Source: Flavobacteriales bacterium
GTDB lineage: Bacteria > Bacteroidota > Bacteroidia > Flavobacteriales_D > Crocinitomicaceae
DNA: 64,000 nt
Assembly (NCBI GenBank): GCA_947462255.1
Contig: CANHOA010000002.1
Location: 1-64,000, forward strand
Direction: 5' to 3'
Under the pieces are notes generated by a model. The model saw nothing but the letters and a program-made list of their open reading frames with translations, was not told the origin of the DNA and did no database searches. Both the position numbers and the translations under genes were made by a program. Below, in pieces: positions 3,176-44,065 of the stretch (position 1 is its first letter; every line of letters starts with the position of its first letter).

Positions 3176-3601
3176 ATGAAAATACCTAGCTTGTTTCTTT
3201 TTTTAGTTCTTATTATGGCTTCCTCCTGCCTTAAGAACAACCAAAATCCGGTTCCAAGTATTCCTTTTGATATTACAATCGATATTAATTTACCAAGTTA
3301 TTATCAATTACAAGGGGTTGGTTCATGGACCTACGTCAACGGTGGATCAAGGGGTATTATCGTTTACAGAAGAACAATTGACGAATTTGTTGCATTCGAC
3401 CGACATTCGCCCATGGATCCAAACGGGACATGTTTTCTTCCACTTTTCCCCGAACAAGATAATTTTCTACAATTAAAAGACACCTGCAGTAGCGCACAGT
3501 TTTCATTATATGATGGCGGAGCCATTTCTGGATCTCAATTTGGCTTAAGACAATATGCTACTCAATTTAATGGAAGTAATTTACTACGAATTTATAATTA
3601 A
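3176..3601 (+). CDS. lipoprotein, Rieske-like fold with apparently degenerate cluster ligands
   Basis: Signal peptide with SSC lipobox; FVAFDRHSP...C...CSSAQFSLYDGGAISG...L..Y pattern resembles Rieske-type proteins of Bacteroidota. Confidence 0.6.
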   Translation: MKIPSLFLFLVLIMASSCLKNNQNPVPSIPFDITIDINLPSYYQLQGVGSWTYVNGGSRGIIVYRRTIDEFVAFDRHSPMDPNGTCFLPLFPEQDNFLQLKDTCSSAQFSLYDGGAISGSQFGLRQYATQFNGSNLLRIYN

Positions 3602-13440: not shown

Positions 13441-13548
13441 TATTCGGCCTTGAATTTAATGGTTTTTGCACCTGAACTGAAACTTTTAATTTTTAAAATT
13501 TCTATAAGAACATTTTTGAAAAATTTCAGTTTCAGAAAGGAGTTAAAA

Positions 13549-13597
13549 TTGTTCGCAACGAATTGTAAGTAGTTTTAGAATAATTATTTGCGAACAA
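13549..13597. repeat. inverted repeat TTGTTCGCAA / TTGCGAACAA
   Basis: Perfect 10-bp arms at 13549-13558 and 13588-13597. Confidence 0.6.
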
Positions 13598-13626
13598 AAT
13601 AGGAATTCATAGCCTTGACTTTTTTG

Positions 13627-13769: not shown

Positions 13770-13930
13770 AGCTCATCTCGACTACGCTCGATGTGCTTTA
13801 AGTGAATCGAGCGGAGTCGAGAGACACGGTGAAGTCGATGAGCTAAAAGTGAATCGAGCGGAGTCGAGAGACACGGTGAAGTCGATGAGCTCTAAGTGAA
13901 TCAAGAGACACGATGAACTCGAGAGTCACT
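13770..13930. repeat. REP-like GAATCGAGCGGAGTCGAGAGACACGGTGAAGTCGATGAGCT direct repeats with an inverted partial copy
   Basis: Two nearly identical ~46-bp units (13799-13844, 13845-13891), a degenerate third (13892-13930), and inverted AGCTCATCTCGACTACGCTCGATGTGC at 13770-13796. Confidence 0.85.
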
Positions 13931-15685: not shown

Positions 15686-15826
15686 TCTCGATTGGCAAAG
15701 AGAGGATAAAGAAAATTTCGAAGCGTAAGCGATACCGAAAAGCGCTTGTCGTTTGATAAGCTAGCTTATCACTCTTTTCGTGTATCGGTCGATGAGAAAT
15801 TTTCGCCGAACGTCTTCAATCGAGAA
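15686..15826. repeat. ~140-bp imperfect palindrome
   Basis: Arms TTCTCGATTG/CAATCGAGAA, GAAAATTTC/GAAATTTTC, CGATACCGAAAAG/CTTTTCGtGTATCG; apex GATAAGCTAGCTTATC (15755-15770). Confidence 0.75.
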
Positions 15827-15827
15827 T

Positions 15828-15900
15828 TGATTTTTTCGTTCTTTTGTATCAAGACAAAAGGACAAAGAAAATAGAGTCCGATTTTTTATCGGACAATATT
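15828..15900 (+). repeat. A/T-rich hairpin tail module T, copy 1
   Basis: GATTTTTTCGTTCTTTTGTATCAAGACAAAAGGACAAAGAAAATA.GTCCGATTTTT..TCGGACAATA; nearly identical to the reverse complement of ~43172-43240. Confidence 0.75.
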
Positions 15901-27506: not shown

Positions 27507-27643
27507 GCTTTTTCTATAAAAATTGGGGTTAAAAATGATTAGTTGAAATTACTTAAAAAATTCAATAGTCTTCGATAAAAATATAGCTTTTAAGATAGAG
27601 CAATAGCTTTAAATAAAAACAATAACTGTCCCATAATTATCAT

Positions 27644-27805
27644 TTGTCGCCTATTATGATGATAAAGGGTAGCGAATTGAAATTAGGGCTCCGTGAAGTA
27701 GCTCGTAGAGATCGCTGAAACGGTCTTATTTCAAGAGTAGAGTGAATTGAAGAATAATCAGCGACTTGATTTTTTGCTCCTTTTTCATCAAGGAAAAAGT
27801 AGAAG
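27644..27805 (+). repeat. palindromic element P + A/T hairpin tail, copy Z3
   Basis: TTGTCGCCTATTAT...CCGTGAAGTAGCTCGTAGAGATCGCTGAAACGGTCTTATTTCAAGAGT...GAAGAATAATCAGCGACTTGATTTTTT; homologous to the reverse complement of 43173-43362. Confidence 0.8.
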
Positions 27806-27942
27806 AAAAGAGACAGAAGATCACGTGAACATCAATCTTTATTAAACTCGAATCATTTTTACCAGACACTAATCTGAAAAATTCAAAAAAAGCATGGATA
27901 AGTAGCAACTTATCCATACTCATTTTAAAAGTTAGAAATCCC

Positions 27943-42924: not shown

Positions 42925-43042
42925 TTGAGTTTACACTTTTGTACCACAAATCAAAATCCTCATCAAATCATAACGTGAACAAGAATCTCAATCTAAACGA
43001 TTTTTGTACTTGGCTTTCTTTTTTCTTGACAAAAAAAGTCAC

Positions 43043-43158
43043 GACTCTGAATTTCTCTTTTTCCGCCGTAGCGGACGCAAATAATCAATAGATAGTGCTC
43101 ACTTCGAATGAATTCTTAATTTTTAATAGTAACATATTTTACTGGTACGAATACTCAC
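43043..43158 (-). repeat. dispersed intergenic module X, copy 2
   Basis: ACTCTGAATTTCTnTTTTTCCGnCGTAGCGGACGCAAATAATCAATAGnTAGTGCTCACTTCGAATGAATTnTTAAT shared with 43583-43698. Confidence 0.9.
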
Positions 43159-43172
43159 TATTTTTTCACTAT

Positions 43173-43362
43173 TGTCCGATAAAAATCGGACCTTATTTTC
43201 TTTGTCCTTTTGTCTTGATACAAAAGAACGAAAAAATCAAGTCGCTGATTATTCTTCAATACACTCCACTCTTGAAATAAGACCGTTTCAGCGATCTCTG
43301 CGAGCTGCATTACGGTACCATTATTTAAATTCGCTTTACTTTATCAGAATAATAGGCGACAA
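43173..43362 (-). repeat. palindromic element P + A/T hairpin tail, copy Z4C
   Basis: Reverse complement aligns with 27644-27770 over most of its length; its tail aligns with 15828-15900. Confidence 0.85.
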
Positions 43363-43386
43363 GAGAAAAAAAATGAACTTATTTTT

Positions 43387-43560
43387 TAATAATGAAAGCT
43401 TGCAAAAGAGAATGATTGTATTGAACTAAGACTTGGGTACCGTGAGGTAGTTCGGTAGAAATCACCGAAAGGGTCAAGTCTTAGAATTGGAGAGAATGAA
43501 CGCATGCCACTTTCGAGTTTTTTTGCTACTTTTTTTGCGGAAAAAAAAGTAGGGTAAGTA
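43387..43560 (+). repeat. palindromic element P, diverged copy Z4D, with hairpin CTACTTTTTTTGCGGAAAAAAAAGTAG
   Basis: CTAAGACTTG/CAAGTCTTAG (43426-43435/43475-43484) and TTCGGT/ACCGAA arms; shares GGTACCGTGAGGTAG...GTAGAAATC core with Z3/Z4C. Confidence 0.75.
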
Positions 43561-43582
43561 GCAGCGAAACTTAAAAAGTCAA

Positions 43583-43698
43583 TACTCTGAATTTCTGTTT
43601 TTCCGACGTAGCGGACGCAAATAATCAATAGTTAGTGCTCACTTCGAATGAATTATTAATCTTTAACATTAAAATATTTTACTCTTACGATTGCGAAC
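43583..43698 (-). repeat. dispersed intergenic module X, copy 3
   Basis: Direct repeat of 43043-43158. Confidence 0.9.
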
Positions 43699-43780
43699 AT
43701 TCAGAAAAATAAACACCCAATACTTAATAACTTTCTTTTTTCTTTATTCTAGATAAAATTCATTGACATACCTTTGGTAT

Positions 43781-44065
43781 ATGAATAGAATCCCTAGATT
43801 TCTAAAGAATAAGTATATAATTACAATCATTATATTTTTCATCTACAGTATGTTTTTGGATGATACTGATGTTTTTTTATTGGTTCATAACTTAAAAAAA
43901 CGAAGTGAATTAAAAGCCCAAAATGTTTTAATGCATGACCAGCTAGTGGAAGCTCAACGAACGCAAAGACAACTATACAACTTAAACAACCTAGAATCTT
44001 ATGCTAGGTCTAAAAAATTCTTCAAAAAAGAAAACGAAGAAATATTTGTAATCACTTACAAGTAG
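43781..44065 (+). CDS. septum formation initiator / FtsB-DivIC-like
   Basis: One TM then coiled coil (LKKRSELKAQNVLMHDQLVEAQRTQRQL) ending LESYARSKKFFKKENEEIFVITYK. Confidence 0.88.
   Translation: MNRIPRFLKNKYIITIIIFFIYSMFLDDTDVFLLVHNLKKRSELKAQNVLMHDQLVEAQRTQRQLYNLNNLESYARSKKFFKKENEEIFVITYK

Follow-up and report, generated by a model that had tools for sequence, protein, structure and literature searches.

A dispersed, gene-less intergenic element of about 165 nt, with a conserved core of ~120 nt, recurs in genomes of one family of Flavobacteriales, where it is most plausibly a non-autonomous mobile element that acts as one folded strand. We would give this reading a probability of about 0.65. 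Judging from aligned copies, the fold is kept across eight genera by compensatory changes on one specific strand while the letters vary. The element looks undescribed within the scope of Rfam 15 and a limited search of the open-access literature. The window, meaning the whole 64-kb stretch of DNA that was analyzed, is the start of contig C2 in a draft genome of 2.67 Mb and 42 contigs.

Positions 27637-27809 and 43197-43369 of the window form an inverted repeat (I1) of 173 nt whose arms lie 15.4 kb apart and are 83% identical in reverse complement, a match that chance cannot account for (within-genome BLAST E about 1e-46). The initial annotation had described a repeat shared in opposite orientation by two distant gene-free sites lacking a neighboring transposase, and this description holds on each point since both sites are intergenic and transposases are absent nearby. 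Each arm of I1 contains a structured core of type A. Copy 1 occupies 27646-27765 on the forward strand (cmsearch 124 bits, with support from covariation) and copy 2 occupies 43241-43360 on the reverse strand (124.4 bits), both scoring E about 1e-32 with the covariance model. A full-model scan of the window finds three cores only, the third being an addition to the original pair of sites: a diverged type B copy at 43394-43514 on the forward strand (96.5 bits, E about 1e-24) that stands back-to-back with copy 2 across a 33-bp spacer (43361-43393). Following the cores are a T-tract and an A/T-rich hairpin at 27766-27802 (forward strand), 43197-43240 (reverse) and 43515-43552 (forward) for copies 1, 2 and 3, respectively; a hairpin of this kind had been noted after the arms and is present. 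Copies 2 and 3 share an intergenic block (42925-43798) in which they are flanked by D1, a direct repeat of 118 nt with a left copy at 43033-43150 and a right copy at 43573-43690 that is 90% identical to it.

Other repeats populate the same window. Module X, at 13445-13625 on the forward strand, is a second dispersed repeat with many copies in the genus, consisting of GGCCTTGAATTT...AGCC and then a TTGACTTTTTTG hairpin. It resembles the core in its 3' T-tract, hairpin and P2-like stem, and the two may be distantly related; its match to the model is a non-significant 11.7 bits, and three copies were usable. Positions 15826-15893 (forward strand) hold a solitary A/T hairpin plus GTCCGATTTTTTATCGGAC without a core, and other families of the order have lone hairpins like it. 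A tandem repeat of 47 nt, TCGATGTGCTTTAAGTGAATCGAGCGGAGTCGAGAGACACGGTGAAG, lies at 13777-13925, with two copies at 94% identity and a third that has decayed.

The core is organized into the helices P1a, P1b, P2, P3, P3b and P4. In copy 1, P1a pairs GTCGC (27646-27650) with GCGAC (27761-27765) and is followed inward by P1b, P2 (27677-27686/27725-27734), P3 (27690-27694/27720-27724), P3b (27697-27699/27714-27716) and P4 (27702-27704/27708-27710). All of the arms listed in the initial annotation are present, comprising ATTAT/ATAAT, TTGAAAT/ATTTCAA, CCGT/ACGG and AGT or AGC/GCT in addition to the P1a pair. Its term "palindromic" needs to be qualified: the arms do pair, but rather than a simple palindrome they make an interrupted stem of five or six helices with conserved internal loops.

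The evidence for this structure is comparative. Single-copy folding energies are weak evidence, with an unremarkable z of -0.9 for copy 1 and a z of -2.2 for copy 2, and they carry no weight in this account. Nineteen copies, taken from the window genome, from congeneric species and from named lake assemblies, were aligned with MAFFT (alignment A1), from which RNAalifold predicted 25 pairs, 17 of them with compensatory changes. The final structure of 27 pairs was set by hand, with two predicted P1-P2 pairs removed and a third P3b pair and P4 added by eye. Against this structure, 93% of the cells of A1 pair and double changes are found at 20 of the 27 pairs, with a covariation score of 0.444 compared to 0.152 for shuffled alignments, a null that ignores the relatedness of the copies here and in the comparisons below, and at most 0.114 when the structure is slid. 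Further copies were gathered with a covariance model, R1. Within the genus and its relatives from lakes, 86 distinct copies score 0.472 (0.164 shuffled), and 49 copies from seven other genera score 0.734 (0.187 shuffled, at most 0.101 slid) with double changes at all 27 pairs; these two alignments were fitted to the model and are hence biased towards it, while A1 is free of such fitting. The compensatory base changes by which a structured RNA gene is recognized are therefore found here, and the conserved fold that had been proposed is borne out by very strong covariation.

The helices vary in their letters. P1a is found as GUCGC/GCGAC, GGUGC/GCACC or GAAAG/CUUUC depending on the subfamily, and the 10-bp P2, for example, as UUGAAAUAAG/CUUAUUUCAA, CUGAAAACUG/CAGUUUUCAG or CUAAGACUUG/CAAGUCUUAG. 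The variants of P3 are ACCGU/ACGGU, ACCAU/AUGGU and ACCCU/AGGGU; those of P3b are AGC/GCU and GGU/ACC, and those of P4 are CUC/GAG, UUC/GAA and CC/GG. The purine-rich internal loops are near-constant in sequence, reading AGCGAA / GAGUGGAG and GA-AG / AUC-GAA (AGCGAA / GAGTGGAG and ATC-GAA in DNA form), and apparent tandem G-A pairs are seen between P3 and P3b. Since G-T/T-G cells number 74 and A-C/C-A cells number 25, the fold serves the strand on which the core reads GUCGCC...GCGAC. Short REP-like palindromes are nested within the element at nine loci (L073, L075, L078, L079, L084, L085, L137, L145 and L029). They consist of TTCGCCGCGGCGAA, TGCGCCTAGGCGCA, GCTGACCGAGG..CGAGCGTCAG and CATCTCGACTACGCTCGATG.., lie for the most part inside P4 or in the stretch from P2 to P3, and leave the fold largely intact.

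The check for further copies that had been suggested was positive, as the window genome carries 14 copies by covariance model, and eight substantial ones by BLAST. Nearly all of the genomes compared are draft assemblies, and among those of the genus the element is patchy, with 1 to 14 matches in each of 23 carriers out of 86. At the level of the order, 31 of 299 genomes are positive, all from the window's own family and spanning eight genera. Only one genome out of 396 across the phylum gives a match and it is the window genome itself, indicating that the specificity of the model is high. Named records carrying a C-type core come from Flavobacteriales assemblies, of which several originate in lakes or ponds and some are labeled Cryomorphaceae or Lishizhenia; because Lishizhenia belongs to the Crocinitomicaceae, the carrier family is probably the latter. 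Plasmids and phages gave zero matches, and viral contigs gave one exact C-type pattern only. Back-to-back pairs with a spacer of 31-33 bp are common (G282:C13, G233:C12, G319:C35 and G000:C36). Other copies are single, or stand in tandem at distances of 325 and 391 bp in G250 and G004 and of about 460 bp at C6. In the window genome, the unit of about 460 bp that contains an E-type copy stands twice in tandem at G000:C6:68323-68900, where G282 (C37) has one core match (L029, L139). Some C-type copies (L092 at 3390-3507, L099 and L121) adjoin a tRNA-Asn gene, and the 3' half of the tRNA repeats downstream.

Mobility, which the initial annotation had also proposed, can be followed at five loci where the orthologous site of another genome is empty, as would be expected of a MITE. 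At the copy 1 site, a segment of about 316 bp (27558-27876, forward strand) is missing from G282, a sister genome that is 94% identical, and the moved DNA is thus larger than the repeat. The insertion is flanked by a 10-bp direct repeat, AAAAATTCAA, at about 27555-27564 and 27877-27886, and the empty site of G282 has one copy of a AAAAATTCAA-like sequence. Since the outgroup genomes G003 and G099 have a short spacer between the same genes, insertion rather than deletion is the simpler account. The block near 43 kb spans 874 bp in the window genome as opposed to about 86 bp in G282 and G099; it is present in G233, while G282, G099 and G319 agree exactly in the spacing of its flanks (986 bp). 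Three more insertions complete the set. Four genomes lack the one of about 600 bp at C21, G319 lacks the 425 bp inserted at C12, and both G282 and G099 have an empty site at C6:96186. Inserted segments range from about 316 to 790 bp, and shared ends were not seen among them. An exact duplication of 10 bp flanks the insertion in the window, and imperfect ones of about 10 and about 33 bp flank those at C12 and C21, respectively. Because the insertions differ in size and content, either the unit of movement may not be fixed or several events may be superposed, and this variation counts against the preferred reading.

As a folded strand, the element could move in the following manner. Once a strand becomes single, whether as lagging-strand or excised DNA or as a transcript, it would fold into the P1-P4 shape. 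A protein supplied in trans would contact the purine-rich internal loops, cut or copy the element, and paste it into A/T-rich intergenic DNA, often as a back-to-back pair. The role for a trans-acting protein is inferred from a fold that is conserved in an element that carries no gene. An all-against-all comparison of ORFs at some 115 copy loci returned, by way of companion proteins, only translated repeats and small groups of neighbors, mostly at orthologous loci, and the failure to find a mobilizing protein counts against this explanation. An autonomous composite, with a gene between two cores, was considered and set aside, as no pair of cores lies 0.5-6 kb apart among the listed copies. A cis-regulatory or 3'-UTR role was likewise rejected on the mixed orientation of neighboring genes, the copies showing no preference for context or orientation.

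The foremost alternative is a mobile structured RNA, a possible though not a favored explanation. The core would be transcribed by read-through or from a hidden promoter, and would then fold and act as a ribozyme, as a component of an RNP or as an RNA-borne element, with the T-tract and hairpin serving as a terminator or 3' end. The complexity of the fold, its conserved purine-rich internal loops, the apparent tandem G-A pairs and the strand-specific wobble pattern would all be in keeping with an RNA, as would the polarity of the 3' module. In the 18 nt that directly follow P1, 105 of 116 copies have a run of four or more T, compared to 21 of 116 on the 5' side. Over the next 65 nt, 78 of 116 have a stem spanning 9 bp or more, compared to 6 upstream and 2 in shuffles, and this polarity is constant over genera. 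Upstream of the core, however, no promoter signal is apparent: TAnnTTTG is found in 3 of 100 copies where 3.2 are expected, and Bacteroidetes and sigma-70-like patterns are not enriched. A CGAAG motif is found ahead of the core in 22 of 100 copies, where 2.4 are expected. The mixed orientation relative to neighboring genes also argues against an RNA, as do the back-to-back pairs, which leave about 31 bp for two promoters, and the rarity of wobble pairs, at ~2.5% of cells. Such a proportion would be low for an RNA, and would fit DNA somewhat better. On these four grounds, a folded DNA strand is slightly preferred over RNA as the form in which the element acts, even though the conserved purine-rich loops and the 3' T-tract would suit an RNA equally.

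It is unlikely, though worth weighing, that the element is an unusual REP system and owes its movement to a RAYT/TnpA-REP type of Y1 (HUH) transposase, the gene of which has lost the repeat. The back-to-back pairs resemble REPINs, and the copy at C21 adjoins a truncated Y1 gene of the MGQSL type. Within the genus, full-length Y1 genes are found in 14 of 23 carriers compared to 8 of 63 non-carriers (P = 2e-5), and the MGQSL and MSWVRVY subtypes in 12 of 23 compared to none of 63 (P = 9e-9), although both associations are uncorrected for descent, which weakens them. Y1 genes of subclass 2.6 in Bacteroidetes have been reported with atypical flanking structures (PMC6006769) that are akin to the element in phylum and in having copies elsewhere in the genome. 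The members of this subclass in the genus, assigned by the motifs NHIH and YIHNNP, are instead flanked by short GCAGGATTGCAAATCCTGC-type palindromes and have no core match. Overall, three subtypes of Y1 gene are each flanked by short palindromes of their own. When the covariance model was run on 43 Y1 loci of the genus, no core was found within about 1-2 kb of an intact Y1 gene, the sole match (L005) being at a truncated fragment. Moreover, G233 holds 14 copies yet has no Y1 match, and G250, G077 and G003 are further carriers for which the same is true. A Y1/RAYT parent, a candidate suggested by the C21 fragment and the co-occurrence, was rejected on the ground that intact Y1 genes of the three subtypes come with their own short repeats and without the core. 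One such intact gene, of 148 aa, lies at G000:C2:95695-96039 (L013) amid its own CAACCCTTTCAGGGTTG and AAGCCCTTCAGGCTT palindromes and looks like a REPtron of the window genome.

Far less probable is that the copies are passive debris, functionless remnants of the ends of an extinct transposon that recombination between islands of intergenic repeats has multiplied. They do form mosaics in which D1, module X and hairpins also take part, some are truncated (L012) and those of the window genome are 79-85% identical to the window copy. Across genera, however, each of the 27 pairs shows compensatory changes, which demonstrates long-continued selection on the fold and already leaves this reading disfavored, and near-identical tandem copies in G250 suggest recent copying.

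The preferred reading of a mobile element acting as a folded strand can also be placed against known systems. Of the classes offered at the outset, namely a REP/MITE-like mobile palindrome or a structured RNA, mobility and a covarying structure new to Rfam both stand, while REP membership does not, and a MITE in the strict sense finds no support in terminal inverted repeats or a partner transposase. Similar to REPs, REPINs and BIMEs with their RAYTs, the element is dispersed, intergenic, palindromic and non-coding, occurs as single and back-to-back copies in mosaics with other repeats, and conserves a single-strand fold. REP membership nonetheless fails because the element is several-fold too large, has a multi-helix fold with conserved loops and does not flank intact RAYT/Y1 genes: a REP is a hairpin of 20-40 nt, and here there is a 120-nt fold, at most 14 copies per genome and a position beside none of the intact Y1 genes examined. 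A constant tetranucleotide was looked for at the 5' foot of the core and not found, with GTAG and CGTC both absent. Like MITEs, the element is short, gene-less, mobile and found in A/T-rich intergenic DNA with possible target duplication. It differs in that no terminal inverted repeats were found at the ends of the 316-bp insertion, no parent transposon was found, and the fold is conserved over genera far beyond the needs of a MITE. Integron attC sites, which are imperfect palindromes of comparable size that act as a folded single strand, offer another comparison; in this case, no integrase or cassette array was seen beside the element, and its copies are dispersed in both orientations. Among structured RNA motifs, the suggested Flavo-1 (RF01705) shares with the element only that it is a structured non-coding sequence of Bacteroidetes, and it is excluded, giving no match at its gathering threshold. 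Indeed, the whole of Rfam 15 gave zero matches at gathering thresholds and no credible sub-threshold match in the window at E up to 10. None of the three results that had been named as grounds for abandoning the original proposal was seen: copies were found, covariation is strong and Rfam gave no match.

Most small dispersed repeats in bacteria are simple hairpins moved by a known transposase. A more speculative and rather doubtful proposal is that the element represents a novel class among the mobile elements of bacteria, with a large conserved nucleic-acid fold as its defining feature rather than a gene or terminal repeats. It would be moved in trans either as folded single-stranded DNA by an enzyme or as RNA, possibly with ribozyme activity. 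If true, the RNA version would be a bacterial counterpart of SINEs or retrozymes. With about 140 listed copies and a covariance model, the element is open to direct tests, and annotation can give a name to a feature that is absent from Rfam. For the family that carries it, the finding means that selection has kept a complex fold, with its conserved internal loops, through eight genera while a gene-less element kept moving. Either a known class of transposase recognizes a structure far larger than any so far reported for it, or some protein or RNA of an unknown kind is active here.
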